The position numbers and the translations under genes were made by a program. Below, piece by piece: positions 1,600 through 26,623 of a stretch of 64,000 nucleotides of DNA (position 1 is the first letter of the stretch; every line of letters starts with the position of its first letter). Source of the stretch: Phycisphaerae bacterium. GTDB taxonomy: Bacteria > Chloroflexota > Anaerolineae > 4572-78 > J111. Under the pieces are notes generated by a model. It made no database searches. It saw nothing but the letters and a program-made list of their open reading frames with translations, and was not told the origin of the DNA. The DNA lies in assembly GCA_028285035.1 (NCBI GenBank), contig JANQQF010000137.1, forward strand, positions 1 through 64,000, read 5' to 3'.

Positions 1600-4290
1600 C
1601 TATGGTTTCACAATTAACGGCAAATATACCGTCTCAACCGTCCCTATCCCCTGAATCGTAAACGTATACGGACTCTCATCGCTGTCGTCATTGGCAACAG
1701 CAACTTCCGCAACTCGCACCCCTTCCTCAGATGGCACAAAAGTGATGGTAAAGCTGCTACTACCGCCGCCACTAGCGACGGGGCTGCTGGGTTGCTCAGC
1801 AACACTAAACTCGCTAGCATTGGTACCATTGATGATGACCTTTGGATCACCAGTCAGGTTCAAATTGGCATTACCATTGTTGATGATAGTGAAGGTTCGG
1901 GTGAGGGTATCATTCAAGCGTATTGAGCCAAAGTCCGTGTGATTGGTCGTGGTGGGCGTGGTCGAGCCTGTCACGATTGACTGCCCATTGCCGCTCACAT
2001 CAATTTCGGGGATCAAATCTTCTGTGCCTGTACCTTGAATGGTAAAGGTGTAAGGATGTTCATTATCATCGTCATTCTCAATGCTCACTTCTGCCGTCTG
2101 CGTACCAACTGCGCTAGGATCAAATTCGATGATAAAGGTGGTATTACCACTCGTAGGAACGGTATCAGCCGGTTGGGCCGTGACCGTAAAATCTCCAGCA
2201 TCCGTTCCTGTAATCTCGACTTTGGGTGTTCCACTCAGATTAAGCGGCGCATCCCCTGTATTCGAAATTGTGAACGTCCGTTGGATGGTGCCACTACTGG
2301 CCAGTATATTGCCAAAGTCGGTGTGGTCAGTCGGGGAGGGCGTTGTGTCACCATCAGAAATGTCTTGCCCATTCCCACTCACCGCTATTTCTGGGGCAAC
2401 TCCTATCCCCTGAATAGCAAAGTTGTATGGATTCTCGTTATCATCATTATTACTGATACTCACCGCTGCCGAGCGGAGGCCAACAGCAGTCGGGGTAAAC
2501 TGAACGGTGAAGGTGGTCAGACTGTTGGCGGCTACAGTGCTGTTGGGTTGTTGAGTCACACTAAAATCACTGCTGTGGGTGCCACTAATCGCCACGGTAC
2601 TCAAGATCAATTCGGCCTCGCCCGTGTTGGAGATGGTGAAGGTGTGGGCTAATGTGCCGTTCCCTGCACGAACATTGCCAAAGTCAGTATCATCCGTTGT
2701 GACAGGAGAGGTATCGCCATCAGCAATTTCTTGTTCTTGGCCGATAATTGACATCTCTGGGGCAGGTGGCGGGGTGCCAAATCGTTGGGCATAAATCCCA
2801 TGCATACTACCATCTTGGCTGACACCAGTATATGATCCACTATCCCAAACTACGACAAAGTCACCATTCGAGGCCATCCCCAAATTAGGATGGCCTTGCC
2901 TATCTGTTGTATAGGTATTGATCTGGAATTCGCTACCTTGCGGAGTTCCACTCGCATTATAACGCTGGGCATAAATACCCTGTAGACTGCCATCTTGACC
3001 AGGGCCAGAGGATGATCCACTGAGCCAAGCAACAACAAAATTTCCGTCCGTATCCATTCCTACGCTGGGAAAAAGTTGATTATCTATAGAGGTTGTATTA
3101 ATCTGAAACTCAGTTCCTTGTGCGGCCCCATCGACATCATATCGTTGTCCAAAAACGCCATGTTCATCACCATCTGTCCCTTCACTTTGCCAGGCTATCA
3201 CAAAATTTCCGTCGGCGTCCATCCCGATACTCGCCCCCTGCTGCCAATCCAAGGTTGAGGTATTCACTTGAAATTCCCCACCCAAGGCGACCCCACTCGC
3301 ATTGTATCGCTGAGCATATACACCATACCCACTCCCATCTTGACCACTAGACCCCCAAGCGATGACAAAATCCCCATCATCATCCATTCCCACATTAGAC
3401 CAAAATTGGATACCTGTCGTTGTCGTATTAACCCGAAATTCACCCCCCAAGGCGGTCCCACTCGCATTGTATCGCTGGGCATAGATACCATACTGATCAC
3501 CATCCTGTGCATTAGATAGCCAAGTTATTACAAAATTTCCGTCGGCGTTCATTTCTATCTCAGGGAACCGTTGACCATTCATGAAGTGAGTATTGACTGG
3601 AAACTCATTTCCCAAGGCAGTCCCACTGGCATCGTATCGTCGAGCAAAGATGTCACAATGGCTACTACCGCCATCTCCACAGAGTTCCCAAGTTATTACA
3701 AAATTCCCCTCGCCATCCATCCCAACACGAGGATAATGTTGATCTCCTTGAGTATAAAGATTGACTCGAAATTCGTCTCCCTCTGCTACGCCGTTTGCGT
3801 TATATCTTTGGGCATAGATACCGTAGTCATCACCATCCTGACCGTGGGATGCCCAAGCTATCACAAACTCCCCATTGGCCCCCATGCCTACTCCAGGCCA
3901 CATTTGAGAGCTCGTTGTATAGCTGTTCACCTGAAATTCACTCCCCACAGGCTCTTGGGCAGAAACCAGCAACGGCTGACTCAGGCTACTCACCATCAGC
4001 CCTGCCGCCATCACCAAAGCCAGCCACTCGCTATAGCTCATCCGGTGGGGTGACCATTGGCTCAAGCGGGCCAGTTGCGTCAATAGCCACTGTTTCACCT
4101 CAGTGAGATTTGCTTGGCCTTGACAAAGTTGTTGAGATAAATAAGACAACAGGTCCTGCTCCGATGCAGGGAAAATCTGTTTTAACCAGCGCCATAAGTG
4201 TTGTTGTTTTTGAGTTTGTTGGGCCAGCTCAAAGGTTGAGGCAGGTTGTTTTTGTGTTGTCTTATGGTGGGAGAAATCGAAGTGAGTCAT
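1600..4290 (-). CDS. secreted seven-repeat propeller plus choice-of-anchor-D (ASH) protein
   Basis: An 896-residue extracellular protein. Residues 1-88 are a polar helical region, an unusually long stretch before export. A hydrophobic segment (about 89-111) ends in VSA-QEP, a likely signal-peptidase site. About 112-505 hold seven repeats of roughly 56 residues with the core GDFVIAW..GQDG and IYAQRYN..G, fitting one seven-bladed beta-propeller. Three ASH/choice-of-anchor-D type Ig-like domains follow, each starting near GNGQ-I-DGDTTP and DFG and ending NPY-FAIQGIG. The last residues are VYLPLIVKP, a C-terminal tail recurrent in Chloroflexota exported proteins, possibly a sorting signal. The start at 4290 has AAAGGAAG just upstream; the open frame extends 29 codons further without such support. 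The next gene upstream is a paralogue. The ligand is unknown; a role in adhesion or surface structure is inference. Confidence 0.8.
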   Translation of the reverse strand: MTHFDFSHHKTTQKQPASTFELAQQTQKQQHLWRWLKQIFPASEQDLLSYLSQQLCQGQANLTEVKQWLLTQLARLSQWSPHRMSYSEWLALVMAAGLMVSSLSQPLLVSAQEPVGSEFQVNSYTTSSQMWPGVGMGANGEFVIAWASHGQDGDDYGIYAQRYNANGVAEGDEFRVNLYTQGDQHYPRVGMDGEGNFVITWELCGDGGSSHCDIFARRYDASGTALGNEFPVNTHFMNGQRFPEIEMNADGNFVITWLSNAQDGDQYGIYAQRYNASGTALGGEFRVNTTTTGIQFWSNVGMDDDGDFVIAWGSSGQDGSGYGVYAQRYNASGVALGGEFQVNTSTLDWQQGASIGMDADGNFVIAWQSEGTDGDEHGVFGQRYDVDGAAQGTEFQINTTSIDNQLFPSVGMDTDGNFVVAWLSGSSSGPGQDGSLQGIYAQRYNASGTPQGSEFQINTYTTDRQGHPNLGMASNGDFVVVWDSGSYTGVSQDGSMHGIYAQRFGTPPPAPEMSIIGQEQEIADGDTSPVTTDDTDFGNVRAGNGTLAHTFTISNTGEAELILSTVAISGTHSSDFSVTQQPNSTVAANSLTTFTVQFTPTAVGLRSAAVSISNNDDNENPYNFAIQGIGVAPEIAVSGNGQDISDGDTTPSPTDHTDFGNILASSGTIQRTFTISNTGDAPLNLSGTPKVEITGTDAGDFTVTAQPADTVPTSGNTTFIIEFDPSAVGTQTAEVSIENDDDNEHPYTFTIQGTGTEDLIPEIDVSGNGQSIVTGSTTPTTTNHTDFGSIRLNDTLTRTFTIINNGNANLNLTGDPKVIINGTNASEFSVAEQPSSPVASGGGSSSFTITFVPSEEGVRVAEVAVANDDSDESPYTFTIQGIGTVETVYLPLIVKP

Positions 4291-4449
4291 AACGCTTCCT
4301 TTCGCAAATAAACGAATGATAAGATTATTAAATTGATTGGCCAATTCAAGGATATCGAATTTAAGGAGACAAGTCAAGACAAAAATCGCTCAGCGCAAAG
4401 GATATAGTCAGCAGACATAAAGAGGCGGCAAATTTGTTTGAATTGATTT

Positions 4450-5802
4450 TTATTGATGTTTCAAAATTAAAGGCAAGTAAACAGACTGTTGCTGACCTGT
4501 ACCTTGAAGAAGAAAGTTGTAGGGACTTTCATCGCTATCATCGTTACTTATATTAACAATTGCAATACGGGCCCCAACGTCTGTGGGGGTAAAGGTAATT
4601 TGGAAGGTGGTTTGGCTATTAACGGTAATGGCAGTGTTCGGCTGTTGAGTGACTGTAAAATCGCTCGTATGAGGTCCGGTGAGGGTCACCGCCCCCACCG
4701 TTAGGTCGGTATTACCAGTATTAGAGATAACAAAAGTTCGGCTCATACTGTCCTGATTAGCAATAACGTCACCAAAATCAGTGTAATGTTCAAACGTAGG
4801 GCTGGTATCCCCATCTTCAATTTCCTGCCCATTACCACTGACCAAGATTTCAGGGGCAACAACCCCTGACCCTGTTCCTTGAATTGAAAAATCACAAGGA
4901 TGTTCATCCTCGTCATTGTTACTAAAACTCACCGTCGCCGAACGGAGGCCTGTGGTGGTAGGGGCAAAGGTAATCTGAAAGGTGGTGCTCCCATTCGCCG
5001 TAACAGGACTGCTAGGGGGTTGAGACACGCTAAAGTCACTTGCGTGAGGGCCGCTCAAAATAATTGGCCCCACGGTTAACGTTGCAATGCCCGTATTTGA
5101 AATCGCAAAGGTTTGGGTGAGGGCCGCTCCTGATTTTACAACCCCAAAGTCTGTTGCGTCGATGACTGTCGGACTGGTATCGCCATCCACAATCTCCTGC
5201 CCACCACCACTAACCAAGATTCTAGGGCTGCCAAATCGCTGAGCATGGATACCTGCACTTCCATAGAATGCACCATCCTGACTAGTACTTTCCCAAGCGA
5301 TAACAAAATCACCATCTGCATCCATTGCCACGCTTGATCGTCCCTGATCGTAAGTTGTGTAGGTATTAATTAGAAATTCACTCCCCTCTGGAACACCATT
5401 AGCTCGATATCTTCGAGCAAAAACTCCATTACGATCCCCATCTTGACTACGACTCGCCCAGGAAATAACAAAATCCCCCTCATGATCTATTGCCACATCC
5501 GGAGATTGTTGACGATTTGTTGTATAACTATTAACCTGAAATTCAGTTCCTTGGGGAATCCCACTCGCATTGTATCGTTGACCATAAATCCCTTCTTGAT
5601 CACCATCTTGATTATAGCTCGCCCAAACAATGACAAAGTTTCCATCATCATCCATCGCCACACTTGCATCTCGTTGACGATCTGTCGTATAACTATTAAC
5701 CTGAAACTCGCTCCCGGTACGATTCCCATTGGGATCATATCTTTGGGCATAGATACCACTTATGCTTCCATCTTGACCATTATTAAATCGGAGCTTACCC
5801 AA
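4450..5802 (-). CDS. 3' part of frameshifted paralogue: propeller repeats 5-7, two ASH domains, YLPLILK tail
   Basis: This is the downstream portion of a gene whose 5' part is 5760-6701, in another frame. It begins inside propeller repeat 4 (NNGQDGS...GIYAQRYD) and has no plausible start of its own. The longest frame starts at 5802 with an in-repeat methionine and no ribosome binding site. It encodes repeats 5-7, two choice-of-anchor-D type domains and the C-terminal tail VYLPLILKHQ. Adding one base in the short A/T run near 5786-5790 joins both halves into a protein of about 750 residues. That protein has the same plan as the neighbour at 1600-4290: seven repeats, then ASH domains. The break is either a one-base sequencing or assembly error or a recent inactivation. 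The intact flanking repeats favour an error or a very young mutation. Confidence 0.7.
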   Translation of the reverse strand: MGKLRFNNGQDGSISGIYAQRYDPNGNRTGSEFQVNSYTTDRQRDASVAMDDDGNFVIVWASYNQDGDQEGIYGQRYNASGIPQGTEFQVNSYTTNRQQSPDVAIDHEGDFVISWASRSQDGDRNGVFARRYRANGVPEGSEFLINTYTTYDQGRSSVAMDADGDFVIAWESTSQDGAFYGSAGIHAQRFGSPRILVSGGGQEIVDGDTSPTVIDATDFGVVKSGAALTQTFAISNTGIATLTVGPIILSGPHASDFSVSQPPSSPVTANGSTTFQITFAPTTTGLRSATVSFSNNDEDEHPCDFSIQGTGSGVVAPEILVSGNGQEIEDGDTSPTFEHYTDFGDVIANQDSMSRTFVISNTGNTDLTVGAVTLTGPHTSDFTVTQQPNTAITVNSQTTFQITFTPTDVGARIAIVNISNDDSDESPYNFLLQGTGQQQSVYLPLILKHQ

Positions 5803-6701
5803 ACAATGACAAAATCACCATCATCATCCATTGCCACACTTGGGCTATGTTGACCACCTGCAGTATAATTATTGACCCGAAATTCACTACCCGAAGGATT
5901 GCCATTGGTATCATATCTTTGGGCAAAAACCCCATAACCTCCCCAGGCAATCACAAAATCACCATCTGCATTAATCCCTATACTAGCCCCACCTTGAGAA
6001 CCAGTGGTATATGTATTAACTCTAAATTCACTTCCCTGGGGAGTACCATTGGCGTCATACCGTCGAGCATAGATATCATAATTCGTTACATGAAACGGGG
6101 TGAATCCTGACCAGGCCACAACAAAATCACCATCCCCATCCATTACTACTGTGCCTTCAGTGTATTCAGGAATATGAGTGCCTACTCGAAATTCGCTCCC
6201 TTGTGGGGTACCACTCGCATTATACAGCCTAGCATAAACACTATAGGGACCGATGAAATCATCATCAAAAATAATCACAAAATTCCCATCATCATCCATT
6301 GCCACATCAGGTTTAATTTGTGCATTTTCCACAACATTCGTGTTGACCTGAAACTCACTCCCCACAGGCTCTTGGGCTGAAGCGAGTAAGGGCTGACTCA
6401 AACTATTGACCAGCAACCCGCTCGCCATCGCCAAGGCCAGCCACTCACTGCGACTCATTTGGAATGATGGCCAGTGAGTCAGTCGCATCATCTGGTCGAT
6501 GAGCCACCATTGCAGTTGACACAAAGTGGTTCGGCTTCGCTGGAGTTGTTGATAAAGATAGTCAAAGAGACTTTGATTTAAGCGGCGCAACGTCTGTTTG
6601 ATCAGGTGCCAAAATTCTTGTCGTTGTTGAGCCAGTTCAAAGGCTGATAGTGTCTGTTTTTTTGATTTAGTTAAACCATTTGATTGGTTGTTTTCTGCCA
6701 T
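5760..6701 (-). CDS. 5' part of frameshifted paralogue: N-terminal region, export segment, propeller repeats 1-4
   Basis: This is the N-terminal half of the second propeller/ASH protein. Its first ~90 residues parallel those of the protein at 1600-4290: FELAQQ near the start, then L-YL-QQL, then MSRSEWLALAMASGLLVNS, and a cleavage-like SAQEPVGSEFQVN. After the export segment come propeller repeats 1-4. The frame then runs into a stop at 5760 after WVSS, where the sister frame continues the repeat. The start at 6701 (ATG) has GGAG 9 bases upstream; a TTG at 6716 is possible but lies on that same box. The conserved long pre-signal region in both paralogues suggests that it matters for targeting or folding. 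See the 4450-5802 entry for the frameshift. Confidence 0.7.
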   Translation of the reverse strand: MAENNQSNGLTKSKKQTLSAFELAQQRQEFWHLIKQTLRRLNQSLFDYLYQQLQRSRTTLCQLQWWLIDQMMRLTHWPSFQMSRSEWLALAMASGLLVNSLSQPLLASAQEPVGSEFQVNTNVVENAQIKPDVAMDDDGNFVIIFDDDFIGPYSVYARLYNASGTPQGSEFRVGTHIPEYTEGTVVMDGDGDFVVAWSGFTPFHVTNYDIYARRYDANGTPQGSEFRVNTYTTGSQGGASIGINADGDFVIAWGGYGVFAQRYDTNGNPSGSEFRVNNYTAGGQHSPSVAMDDDGDFVIVWVSSDLIMVKMEA

Positions 6702-6806
6702 CTGCTTTTTCTCCAATTAACCTATAGAGCCCAATACCACCATTATAATCAAAAAAACAGGGTGAATCTGTCAGGCGGCTGAGTTTGGACTGAGATTAAT
6801 GAGAGG

Positions 6807-21023: not shown

Positions 21024-21061
21024 AATGTCAATATCCAAAAATTAACCATATAAATGATTTT

Positions 21062-21095
21062 CAATCGGGCAGGTCGTTACCTTCCTGCCCGATTG
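21062..21095 (+). promoter_or_regulatory. leader hairpin before the PepF-type gene
   Basis: Arms CAATCGGGCAGG and CCTGCCCGATTG pair over 12 bases around a 10-base loop, ending 8 bases before the AAGGAG box of the peptidase gene. It is stable and could affect translation start or mRNA decay. Its presence argues against the upstream ATG at 21054, because the frame would run straight through the hairpin. Confidence 0.6.
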
Positions 21096-21119
21096 AATGT
21101 AGAAGGAGTACATCTTATC

Positions 21120-22907
21120 GTGACAGATACAACCGTACAATATAAACCCACCCGCTGGAGTCTCAATTCAATTCTAGCCGCCCCTGAAGGCAATCCTGTT
21201 GAACAAGCATTAAACGAGCTAGAACAAGCAACCACTGCCATCGAAGCTTTACGCCCAGCCCTCACCTCAGACATTTCAACCGAAAGCTTTGCCGAAGCGA
21301 TGACTGCGGTTGAAACTATCTCGAAAGTTGGCAATCGTTTAGGGAGCTATGGCCCACTCTGGTTTGCCGAAAACACCCAAAATCAAGAGGCCTTAGGGTT
21401 TATGGGGAAGATGGAGCAAATTTTAACGGAGGCCCAAAATCGCACCCTCTTTTTAAGTCTGTGGTGGAAGGCCTTGGATGATGAAAATGCAGAGCGCTTA
21501 CTAGCCACAGTTAATGACGATCTGAAATATTATCTGACCCAACAACGGGCCTTTAAGGATCACACCTTATCAGAAGCCGAAGAACAGCTTATCAATCTGA
21601 AAGACGTTAACGGCATCAGTGCCATTGTCACCATCTACGATATGATCACCAGCAAATTTAGTTTTGAGTTGGAGATTGAGGGGGAGGTTCAAAAGCTAAC
21701 CCGCGATCAAGTGATGATGTATGCTCGCTCCCCTGAAGCGGAGATGCGTGCAAAAGCGTATCAAACGCTATTCGATGTGTATAAAGCTGAAGATAGTGTT
21801 CTAGCCCAAATTTACATTCACCGGGTCCGTGATTGGGCCACAGAAAATCTTAAGTTGCGCCATCACGACTCACCAATTTCGGTCCGCAACAAAATCAACG
21901 ACATCCCTGATGAAGTAACGAATACATTGCTGGATGTATGTGCAGAGCAGGCATCTGTCTTTCAGCGTTACTTCAAGCTAAAAGCAGGCTGGTTGGGTGT
22001 TGAGAAGCTCCGGCGCTATGATTTGTATGCACCTGTCAGCAGCCAATCGGAAAAAACGGTTGACTATAATGACGCGGTGAACATTGTGTTAAATAGTATG
22101 GGTGAGTTTTCGCCCGAGGTCGCTGATCATGCTCAACGCGTTTTCGCCGATGGGCACATCGATTCCGAAATTCGGGAAAACAAGCGGGGTGGAGCGTTTT
22201 GTGCCAGCATCTTGCCGGATATGACCCCGATGGTGCTCATGAATTACACCGGCGAACCTCGCCAAGTAGCAACCCTCGCCCACGAATTAGGCCACGCCAT
22301 CCACGCTATGCTGGCCTCTGATCATTCAGTTCTCACCTTCCACTCAGCCCTGCCAATGGCCGAAACCGCCTCGGTTTTCTCCGAGATGCTGCTCACGGAT
22401 CGATTGTTGGGTGAAGAAAAAGATCCGCAAGTACGACGTGACTTGCTCGTTGAGGCCATTGACGACATGTACGCCACAGTCCTCCGCCAAGCCTATTTCG
22501 TGTTGTTTGAGCGGGAAGCCCACAAAGCGATTATGGAAGGGGCCAATATGGCCGATCTTAATGCCTTATATGCGGCCAATTTACAGCAGCAATTTGGTGA
22601 CTCGATGGAAATTAGTGAGGATTTCCAGCACGAATGGATCGTCATTCCCCACATCTTCCACACCCCCTTCTACTGCTATGCTTATAGCTTCGGGCAATTG
22701 CTGGCCCTCTCATTGTACCAACAATACAAAGAGCAAGGGGAGAGCTTCGCCCCCAAACTTCTCAAAATCCTGGCCTATGGCGGTTCTGCCAGCCCGAACG
22801 ATATCCTCATCGAAGCTGGTATCAACATGGCAGACCCTGACTTTTGGCGCAGTGGCTTTAAGGTCGTTGAAGATATGATTAACGAGTTGGAGCGTCTTTC
22901 GGCGTAG
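21120..22907 (+). CDS. M3 family oligoendopeptidase (PepF-like)
   Basis: A 595-residue cytosolic zinc metallopeptidase that degrades medium-length peptides. The zinc motif is H388-E389-L-G-H392 in LAHELGHAIH. The downstream third ligand glutamate lies in MAETASVFSEM, and the C-terminal IPHIFHTPFYCYAYSFGQLLAL is typical of PepF/PepF-like clade M3 enzymes. The open frame can start at ATG 21054, but that codon has no ribosome binding site and lies before a strong hairpin. GTG at 21120 has AAGGAG 11 bases upstream and gives the usual family length. A terminator follows at 22926-22959. Confidence 0.93.
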   Translation: MTDTTVQYKPTRWSLNSILAAPEGNPVEQALNELEQATTAIEALRPALTSDISTESFAEAMTAVETISKVGNRLGSYGPLWFAENTQNQEALGFMGKMEQILTEAQNRTLFLSLWWKALDDENAERLLATVNDDLKYYLTQQRAFKDHTLSEAEEQLINLKDVNGISAIVTIYDMITSKFSFELEIEGEVQKLTRDQVMMYARSPEAEMRAKAYQTLFDVYKAEDSVLAQIYIHRVRDWATENLKLRHHDSPISVRNKINDIPDEVTNTLLDVCAEQASVFQRYFKLKAGWLGVEKLRRYDLYAPVSSQSEKTVDYNDAVNIVLNSMGEFSPEVADHAQRVFADGHIDSEIRENKRGGAFCASILPDMTPMVLMNYTGEPRQVATLAHELGHAIHAMLASDHSVLTFHSALPMAETASVFSEMLLTDRLLGEEKDPQVRRDLLVEAIDDMYATVLRQAYFVLFEREAHKAIMEGANMADLNALYAANLQQQFGDSMEISEDFQHEWIVIPHIFHTPFYCYAYSFGQLLALSLYQQYKEQGESFAPKLLKILAYGGSASPNDILIEAGINMADPDFWRSGFKVVEDMINELERLSA

Positions 22908-24333: not shown

Positions 24334-24464
24334 GCGTTTTGCACCCTCGTGTGGCTGCAAGCCTATCAAAGACCAGAGCATTATAGTAATTCAGACGTAC
24401 TTACTTGTTTCAACAAGCTCTTTTTGTTTTGTATGAATTAACATCCCAAAATTAGCCGCCGCCG

Positions 24465-24548
24465 GCCTGACTTGGGCTATCAACCAAGCCTTGCGATAAA
24501 ACCTAAGCTGATAATGATCAGCTACATTTTGTTTGTTGTTTGTGAGGC
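24465..24548 (-). repeat. degenerate attC-like site at the end of the ankyrin fragment
   Basis: On the minus strand the 84-base segment starts GCCTCAC and ends GTCAGGC, each one mismatch from integron R boxes GCCTAAC and GTTAGGC. It has a central hairpin with arms AGCTGAT and ATCAGCT flanked by A-run and T-run. It begins 7 bases after the ankyrin fragment stop, as attC sites do after cassette genes. The rest of the arms pair poorly, so this is the weaker of the two sites. Confidence 0.35.
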
Positions 24549-24554
24549 CGCTTT

Positions 24555-24689
24555 TTATGTTGCGCCATACCGGATAAGCATTTCAGCAAGTTCTGGATAC
24601 CCAAAGTGCTGTTTGGCTAATTCTAGCGGTGTTTCTCCAACATTAGTCCGACTTTCCACATTCGCACCCGCACCAATCAACGGCTTCAA
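24555..24689 (-). pseudogene. ankyrin-repeat protein fragment
   Basis: About 44 residues remain: one half and one full ankyrin repeat (LIGAGANVESR, ETPLELAKQHFGYPELAEMLIRYGA). A whole ankyrin protein would need several repeats and an N-terminal part. Upstream the frame continues only into the attC-like site at 24719-24845, where it has no ankyrin character. It is therefore either cut by recombination at that site or a very short cassette gene starting at TTG 24689. No ribosome binding site is visible. The stop is 7 bases from the second attC-like element. Confidence 0.55.
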
Positions 24690-24718
24690 TCTTAGTAGGT
24701 GATATTTGGCGACCAGCG

Positions 24719-24845
24719 GCCTAACACCGCACATACACTGCCACCAAAATGGAGTAAATGGCGACTGCCATACGATCAATTCAAGGCCCCACCTAAGCTC
24801 GGAGATTAGCTTGCTTTGGTGGTCGGTTTCAGGTGCTTGTTAGGG
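24719..24845 (-). repeat. attC-like recombination site downstream of the GrpB gene
   Basis: A 127-base imperfect palindrome. On the minus strand it opens CCCTAACAAGCAC and closes GTGCGGTGTTAGGC. The closing GTTAGGC is a full match to the attC R' consensus GTTRRRY, and the opening box differs at its first base. About 30 bases of each arm pair with a few bulges (CCACCAAA/TTTGGTGG inside), and the centre holds further small hairpins. Size and layout suit integron attC sites (57-141 bp). It lies 70 bases after the GrpB stop, on the same strand sense as expected for a cassette. Confidence 0.55.
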
Positions 24846-24915
24846 ACGAACACAAATTAACCCACGGATGCTAGGACTAAATCGCCCAAGGGAGTTGACC
24901 GCCTTTCATCCAATT

Positions 24916-25476
24916 TCAGTCGTGCCATACATCAATAGGCGGCAAGCCTAACCGCTCCCTTGCTTTGTCAACAATCCCTTGTATGAACTCCGTTTTCGCT
25001 TTTGTATATGCAAACGAGTCCTCAATATGCGCTTGGGCCAATCTATCCTTCAACTCCCCATACGCATCAACTGCCTCTGGATGATCAAGAAGATAATCTC
25101 GCATCAGCCGCTCTTTGCGTTCAGCCCACGTCCTCCGCTCTACAACATGCAAATGATACACTTGATCACTCATATCTTTTCTTCGCAAGAAGTGGCGATC
25201 CTTCATCCCTGTTTCTAAAAGACCGTAGCCGTAATCCACCAGAGAACCGAGAATGTCTTCGAGCTCTTCAAGCTCATTCACAGCGGCCATTATGTCAATA
25301 ATAGGTTTAGCGCGTTGATTGGGAATCGCCGTGCTGCCTATGTGTTCAATCTCAACGAAAACCGTCCCACATTTCGTCCACAGGACATTACACTCAGCGG
25401 CGTATATTGCAGCCCATTTTGGATCGTAGTCGACGATTTCGACCGTTTGACTAAACTGATGTTCCGCTTTGCTCAT
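24916..25476 (-). CDS. GrpB family protein (UPF0157 nucleotidyltransferase-like)
   Basis: A 186-residue GrpB-family protein with a nucleotidyltransferase-like fold. The family signature is visible: VEIVDYDPKWAAIYAAE, then IEHIGSTAIPNQRAKPIIDIMAAV, and YHLHVVERRTWAERKERLMRDYLLDHPEA. The biological role is unknown; members are common on plasmids, in integron cassettes and as fusions to CoaE. The ATG at 25476 has AAGGA 4 bases upstream; the longer frame lacks support. A GTTAGGT core lies 18 bases before the start and an attC-like palindrome 70 bases after the stop, so the whole gene looks like a cassette. Confidence 0.9.
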   Translation of the reverse strand: MSKAEHQFSQTVEIVDYDPKWAAIYAAECNVLWTKCGTVFVEIEHIGSTAIPNQRAKPIIDIMAAVNELEELEDILGSLVDYGYGLLETGMKDRHFLRRKDMSDQVYHLHVVERRTWAERKERLMRDYLLDHPEAVDAYGELKDRLAQAHIEDSFAYTKAKTEFIQGIVDKARERLGLPPIDVWHD

Positions 25477-25681
25477 ATTTTCCTTCGAATAGGACCTAAC
25501 TATTATTGTACCGACGTGTCCGTTCAAGTCCATTAATAACGGATATTTCCGTCTAAAATATTAAACCGAAAGGTCGGCCATTAATTTTTTTAAGCCAAAA
25601 CTTATCCCCAACAATAATCCGATTAAAATTCAACCCAAATTATAACATATCGCAGCCACACCCAAAATATACTGAACTTAG
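25477..25681. other. 205-base gap upstream of the GrpB gene
   Basis: AT-rich, without a gene. On the minus strand GTTAGGT (25500-25494) matches the integron crossover core GTTRRRY. A matching left arm upstream was searched for by eye and not found, so this may be an attI-like or decayed site, or chance. Confidence 0.35.
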
Positions 25682-26623
25682 CTACACCCCATGTGCCTGC
25701 TGGTACTTCAAATCGGCGTACTCACCGTAAGACATCGGCTCGTACTTGGCAGGGTGGTCGGCATCGACGAAGGGGGTGAGGCAATCGATGATGGCATCAA
25801 TGTTGGGGTTGTGGAAGAAGGGGATGGATTGGCGGCGACTGTTGCGAGTTTGGTCGGTGGGGGGATTGACGACGCGATGGATGGTGGAGAGCCAGCGGTC
25901 GTTGGTCCACCGCATAAGGGCATCACCAATGTTCATCACATAGGCCCCATCAATGGCGGGCACATCGAGCCATTCGCCGTTGCGGTGTTGGGCTTGTAGA
26001 CCACCCGCTGAGGCCTCAGAGCGCAAAATCGTTAGAAATCCATAGTCAGAGTGAGCACCGGCTCGTAGTTGACCGGGAAGGGGGGCTTGTTCCTGTTCCG
26101 GGTAATTGATCACACGAAGGGAGGAGTGGTGGTGGTCAAATTTATCTTCAAAATAATCCTCGGGTAGGCCAATGGCGAGAGCAAAGATACGTCGCATATC
26201 GTGGCACAAATCACTCATCGCTTGGTAATACTCTAGCCAAACTTCGTACAGATTTGCGGGTTCATCGGGCCAGACATCGCCATAAAAGCCAGGGCCATAA
26301 TCGAGTGTCTCTTTGAAATCACCGGGTCGTTTCTCGCCTAAGGTCGCGGCCAAACTTTCGGCCATCAAGGGGAAGTGCATCAACCCACCTAGCACTTCGC
26401 CCGTTTGCTTAACTCGCTGTTTTTTCTCGGCAGGCAAATCAAAGAAGGCGCGGGAAGTATTATACATCCGCTCGCTCAGTTCGGAGGAAACACCGTGTCC
26501 GGTGATGATGAAGAAGCCGATGTCTTCGCACGCTTGACGAATCGTATCAACAACTTGAGGTGCTTTGTCGGGGTCACCGGCTCTGAAGGGGGCAATATCG
26601 ATGATGGGTAATGATTCGGGCAT
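25682..26623 (-). CDS. isopenicillin-N-synthase-like 2OG-Fe(II) oxygenase
   Basis: A 313-residue non-haem iron dioxygenase. The N-terminal DIOX_N region (LPIIDIAPF, GFFIITGHGV) precedes the double-stranded beta-helix. The iron ligands are H191 and D193 (HSDYGFLTIL) and H249 (STIHRVVNP). The 2-oxoglutarate clamp is R264-x-S266 (RRQSIPFF). It hydroxylates or desaturates a small molecule; the substrate is unknown. GGAG lies 7 bases before the ATG. The gene is set off from the next upstream gene by a long hairpin (26641-26690), so it is probably transcribed alone. Confidence 0.93.
   Translation of the reverse strand: MPESLPIIDIAPFRAGDPDKAPQVVDTIRQACEDIGFFIITGHGVSSELSERMYNTSRAFFDLPAEKKQRVKQTGEVLGGLMHFPLMAESLAATLGEKRPGDFKETLDYGPGFYGDVWPDEPANLYEVWLEYYQAMSDLCHDMRRIFALAIGLPEDYFEDKFDHHHSSLRVINYPEQEQAPLPGQLRAGAHSDYGFLTILRSEASAGGLQAQHRNGEWLDVPAIDGAYVMNIGDALMRWTNDRWLSTIHRVVNPPTDQTRNSRRQSIPFFHNPNIDAIIDCLTPFVDADHPAKYEPMSYGEYADLKYQQAHGV

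Follow-up and report, generated by a model that had tools for sequence, protein, structure and literature searches.

The locus lies within a 64-kb stretch of DNA, the whole of which was analysed and is here called the window. Read along the minus strand, it consists of a 2OG-oxygenase gene (25682-26623), an AT-rich gap, a GTTAGGT core (25500-25494), an intact GrpB (UPF0157) gene, a 127-bp imperfect palindrome (24845-24719), an ankyrin-like fragment and a CRP-like gene (24381-23701). The original prediction had read this order as the relic of an integron cassette array, and its main landmarks are present in the sequence as claimed: the core, the intact GrpB gene, the palindrome with CCCTAAC and GTTAGGC at its ends and the ankyrin-like fragment behind it. 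An Rfam search over the window returned nothing at gathering score, and a SNORD15 match (E 6) in 24400-25600 was set aside as chance level. Four proteins were compared with anti-phage defence families and matched none.

Several observations concern other parts of the window. Matches to NCBIfam Chlor_Arch_YYY and TIGR03663 lie at 54-63 kb and point to a likely origin in Chloroflexota. The neighbouring large ORFs at 1600-6716 have related, repeat-rich and seemingly extracellular sequence and N-termini that look alike by eye, and are perhaps tandem paralogues. The M3-family peptidase encoded at 21054-22907 had a sole match in the genome-contig search, 63% identical and from a MAG titled Nitrospinota, a possible case of gene transfer. 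The contig with that match (L001) was considered as a relative and rejected, its neighbouring ORFs being flagellar-looking and none of them shared by eye; in the genome that contains it (G001) no kin were found. Another locus of the same genome (L003:1501-1791) encodes an IntI-like C-terminal fragment, which covers TIGR02249 positions 218-314 at 106 bits, under the family cut-off; it counts as no evidence for the window.

The palindrome has the parts of an attC site. Its R'' box lies at 24845-24839 and its R' box at 24725-24719 on the minus strand; CCTAAC pairs with GTTAGG at six of six positions, the outermost C/C is unpaired and the AAC/GTT core is present. The consensus of attC R'' boxes is RYYYAAC, from which the initial C of this R'' departs. 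Inside the boxes, 9 of the 12 L-stem pairs formed by the L'' and L' arms are standard in the register of 19 and 32 reference sites, and the arms carry two extrahelical positions, with an unpaired spacer and 76 nt between the modelled arms. Overall, 15 of the 18 pairs are standard and 3 are broken. When the window was scanned for R''/R' boxes with complementary arms, the palindrome was the top element on either strand, and none of 20 Markov-resampled windows reached its score.

We compared the palindrome with reference attC sites using three home-made covariance models (R1, R2 and R3), built from sites in IMG/VR contigs and distinct from the model of IntegronFinder. IMG/VR was scanned with a degenerate attC pattern, which gave 24 and 18 stretches with one locus in common, 41 loci in total, most of which carry clear attC sites by eye. 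The same pattern matched once in the window and in none of 100 shuffles; its register was taken from the aadA1 attC and from the window's own site, so the window fits it by design. From the pattern hits a set of 37 sequences (A1) was formed, leaving out near-duplicates and five hits judged false by eye (L011, L024, L025, L027, L038). R1 was trained on 19 sites of 76-128 bp (A2), aligned with hand-set pairs and leaving out short sites, L036:8157, L039, L040 and L046. Paired cells made up 94.9% of this training set compared to 76.9% after shuffling, the covariation score was 0.411 compared to 0.088, and none of 500 shuffles reached either value. The covariation collapsed on a one-column slide, and the real register beat all slid registers. 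By two cruder measures of the five, double-change pairs and pair types, shuffles matched the training set in 188 and 51 of 500 cases, respectively.

Run against the 41 loci, R1 gave 143 hits at E up to 1. Counted in this set (A3) are the training sites themselves, three echoes from the opposite strand (two of them in L023 and the third in L048), and L011 and L025 from among the sites judged false. Two or more hits fell in 31 of 41 locus/strand groups, one of which (L023, plus strand) consists of opposite-strand echoes; the reference contigs thus hold cassette arrays. As a side observation, the IMG/VR contigs concerned (L008-L048) are labelled viral, and the many that carry integron cassette arrays are likely bacterial sequence in a viral set. 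R2 was built from all 143 hits. R3 was built from 32 sites (A5) that lack a match to the full selection pattern, some of which match its 5' half; they were hand-picked at 98-130 bp and at least 32 bits, with weaker or shorter hits and an L018 duplicate left out. Here paired cells reached 89.6% compared to 70.9% in shuffles and the covariation score 0.446 compared to 0.109, again with neither value reached in 500 shuffles or in any slid register, and the other two measures were matched by 39 and 44 of 500. R3 is the least biased of the models, with an independence that is partial, since its 32 sites were themselves found with R1.

All three models ranked the palindrome first in the window, which bears out the original prediction of an attC-like site at the 3' end of GrpB. 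With default filters and E up to 10, R1 returned the palindrome as its single match in the 64-kb window (33.6 bits, E 7e-6). With filters off, R2 scored it at 30.3 bits (E 5.5e-6; next match 9.9 bits) and R3 at 22.7 bits (E 0.0016; next match 11.2 bits), E-values from these models being rough. The window holds one model match at this level in 64 kb. R3 gave no match at E up to 1 either in the five pattern hits rejected by eye or in seven loci where no array is known (L001-L005, L049, L050). Under R1, 108 of the 143 reference hits score above the palindrome, which makes it a low-end member of the family.

Predicted folding was asymmetric between the strands. The free energy of the minus strand is unremarkable (z -1.24, with 26 of 200 shuffles folding as well), while that of the plus strand, expected to serve as the recombinogenic bottom strand for an attC site in this orientation, is mildly low (z -2.41, 2 of 200 shuffles as good). 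The 18 expected pairs have a mean pair probability of 0.76 on the bottom strand compared to 0.61 on the top strand. When the interior was shuffled 200 times between fixed R boxes, the best value was 0.48 and none reached 0.76; among the 143 reference hits, 64 have a lower bottom-strand pair probability than the palindrome. Together, the model scores and the predicted fold make it very probable that 24719-24845 (minus strand) is an attC site, referred to below as attC 1. The palindrome had no match in plasmid DNA at E up to 1.

The GrpB gene and attC 1 are arranged as in a gene cassette. Ahead of the gene, the 5' core at 25494-25500 is an R'-type box that can be written G|TTAGGT on the minus strand, with the expected cut between 25500 and 25499. 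The two cores would delimit a cassette (cassette A, 24725-25499, minus strand) of GrpB plus attC 1, with 775 bp between the expected cut points; 100 adjacent pairs of reference sites are 201-1930 bp apart, with a median of 373 bp. The distance from the core to the ATG is 23 nt compared to a median of 22 (quartiles 14.5-54) in 91 ORF-bearing reference cassettes, and the GrpB stop lies 70 nt from R'', the 10-90% range of the reference being -92 to 158. These reference values come from cassettes and pairs that were not deduplicated. The GrpB unit has one ORF, a 3' attC site and a G|TT core before the start, the features by which a cassette is recognised. Its GC content is 0.475 and that of the window 0.469, so composition shows no sign of transfer.

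The GTTAGGY motif occurs 12 times in the window on both strands, or 0.094 per kb per strand, so we estimate a chance of ~0.6% that one would fall within 60 nt upstream of the ATG. Another GTTAGGC, at 24952 inside GrpB, has no attC match of note and cautions against over-reading single cores. Upstream of 25500 on the minus strand, R2 and R3 gave no attC match of note. A third, decayed attC that had been seen by eye upstream of GrpB (~25494-25596) was rejected, since no model scored it appreciably on the minus strand and it folds in an ordinary way.

The GrpB gene (24916-25476, minus strand; ATG at 25476, stop ending at 24916) encodes 186 aa and would be the cargo of this cassette. PF04229 matched the 205-aa ORF enclosing it with an E-value of 2.5e-43, and among the best 120 of 1762 homologues listed, full-length identity reached 64%. 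An alignment with 27 homologues has 33 invariant columns. The original prediction had described GrpB as known cassette cargo, and here our searches were unsupportive. In the literature searched, no paper joined GrpB with gene cassette and integron, or attC with gene cassette and UPF0157; PMC11137137 names GrpB once, beside integron. Ten other GrpB loci, two in viral contigs and eight in plasmid regions, were without attC at E up to 1. In the viral contigs, a single-protein query found no GrpB and an alignment query found two distant loci (25% and 28% identity), in neither of which the attC models found an attC site. The eight plasmid regions with GrpB, picked from 40 listed of 1162 records, likewise showed no attC; one region, L057, ends at the record start. 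When 40 of the 120 GrpB proteins and the ankyrin peptide were compared with 48 loci, there was no match at E up to 0.01.

The window was also searched for an integrase. Two tblastn queries, the tyrosine recombinase of L004 and the IntI-like end from L003, gave a best E-value of 3.1, and the H.LRH motif was found in no window frame of 60 or more residues. As a control, the same two queries find IntI-like genes in the array loci L023 and L033. This limited search, which agrees with the claim that the window lacks an integrase, covered 64 kb of a contig that is 82,911 bp long. The further claim of a CALIN-type array fared less well: PMC12444791 gives two attC sites as the default threshold for a CALIN, and the locus has one secure attC site and a candidate second at 6.6-6.9 bits.

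That second site had been drawn at 24548-24465, with boxes GCCTCAC and GTCAGGC. No model reports this register, even at E up to 10 without filters; what the covariance models do give in this region is a shifted and weak candidate at 24436-24541 (R' GTTAATT, 24442-24436). In searches of 1.2-1.3 kb, its matches (24436-24537/24540) scored 6.9, 6.7 and 6.6 bits, with E-values of 0.23, 0.38 and 0.22, and it was absent from the whole-window matches of all three models at E up to 10. In a sequence-free pair count all 9 L pairs and 5 of the 7 R pairs could form, a result found at two places in the window. Markov resampling leads us to expect 2.6 such places per 64-kb strand under criteria that were set after seeing the site, so with 2 observed the window is below chance. 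The free fold of the candidate is dominated by another hairpin. We regard 24436-24541 as a possible dead attC and not as a second secure site; a cassette closed by it (cassette B) would measure 283 bp (24724-24442).

Between attC 1 and this candidate lies the ankyrin-repeat fragment, a 59-aa frame (24555-24734, minus strand) of about one and a half repeats, which PF00023 scored at 21.0 bits against a cut-off of 21.1. This frame starts within the L' arm of attC 1, 10 nt ahead of the cassette cut. Among the 60 rows shown, ankyrin-repeat similarity starts at residues 4-20 past the R' core, and for most of the best ones at residue 8-9. Homologue searches, which reached one and two candidates, found none but the fragment itself, and a search of plasmids gave no match. 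Papers returned for ankyrin with attC, integron and gene cassette looked irrelevant and were set aside. The point at which the similarity begins suggests that an ankyrin gene may have been truncated at the cassette junction.

Taken together, these results make it highly likely, in our judgement, that GrpB, as an ORF with its own attC, makes up an integron gene cassette at a place where no integrase was found. The cassette reading is well supported by the attC models, the predicted fold and the cassette geometry. As PMC11641012 and PMC11023631 describe it, the substrate to which IntI binds is the bottom strand of attC in its folded form, and cleavage falls at the 5'-AAC-3' of the R box. In the simplest history, the GrpB cassette would have entered the locus through an IntI acting in trans or an IntI since lost.

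How the cassette came to stand where it does admits two accounts. The locus may be a true CALIN, the relic of two cassettes: the GrpB cassette and, after it, the 283-bp ankyrin cassette with the decayed attC at 24436-24541 as its end, all else of the array having been lost along with the integrase. For this account speak the weak match given by all three models at the expected place and the nine intact L-stem pairs, with extrahelical positions in register, at one of two such places in the window. Against this, 2.6 such matches are expected per strand under criteria chosen post hoc, the free fold of the candidate favours the other hairpin, and the ankyrin frame starts 10 nt ahead of the cassette cut, as a normal cassette gene would not. 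We give this account somewhat less than an even chance.

Alternatively, an integrase acting in trans may have inserted a single GrpB cassette off-target, in the manner of attG insertion, at a G|TT and so disrupted a small ankyrin gene. This would fit the lack of an attC match of note upstream of 25500 and the beginning of ankyrin similarity close to the 3' core. In addition, the frame that begins with ATG at 25533 and runs into the 5' core is there, by eye, in phase with the ankyrin frame at its exit from the 3' core; phase agreement alone, however, has by our estimate about one chance in three. The 12 residues upstream are not recognisably ankyrin by eye, and the ankyrin fragment's only match is itself, both of which weigh against a split gene. 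We hold this second account to be possible, a little short of evenly balanced. A chance palindrome, or a host-specific dispersed repeat that resembles attC, would accommodate the degeneracy of the site and its broken pairs, but we consider it very improbable in view of the top rank in all three models, well clear of the next match, the failure of every interior shuffle to fold as well, the single model match at that level in 64 kb and the cassette geometry on both sides.

If the GrpB cassette is accepted, a near-intact attC and an intact gene with no integrase found make the locus a usable case for asking how frequent single cassettes are outside integrons in environmental phyla. Should site 2 be dead, CALIN calling that requires two sites would skip the locus. 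A bolder and rather unlikely proposition is that in this probable member of the Chloroflexota a foreign cassette was inserted off-target at a single chromosomal G|TT, with no integron nearby, and thereby interrupted a small ankyrin gene. If true, it would be a natural fossil of attG insertion in an environmental phylum, with GrpB as cargo that was unreported as a cassette gene in the literature searched. Off-target insertion of cassettes at attG sites was reportedly described by Loot et al. in 2024. Such insertion is cited in PMC12901181 and PMC12444791, and off-target insertion and intI loss are among the CALIN origins proposed in PMC8618304.

The GrpB cassette is a small, good example of a known process. 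Since integrons have already been reported in Chloroflexota (PMC8618304 and PMC9668308), finding a cassette there is nothing new. PMC12772301 describes attC sites close to ISCR28/sul4 modules, with a Chloroflexota MAG among the hosts; they stand there in a resistance-gene context, and nothing of the sort was seen in the window. The locus resembles a CALIN, as PMC8618304 and PMC12444791 present it, in that it has a cassette carrying attC and the search of the window yielded no integrase, but differs in its single secure attC. As in attG insertion, the cassette stands at a G|TT core and its 5' side has no recognised attC. The closest counterparts of attC 1 are the long-type attC sites of arrays (122-128 bp; IMG/VR L032, L034, L035, L037 and L044), with which it shares the R''/R' boxes, the L''/L' arms, the extrahelical positions, the spacer and a long terminal loop; it departs from them in its three broken pairs, the C at the first R'' position and the lack of a clear array. 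By free energy, the bottom strand folds better than the top strand in 106 of the 143 reference hits, and attC 1 does the same.
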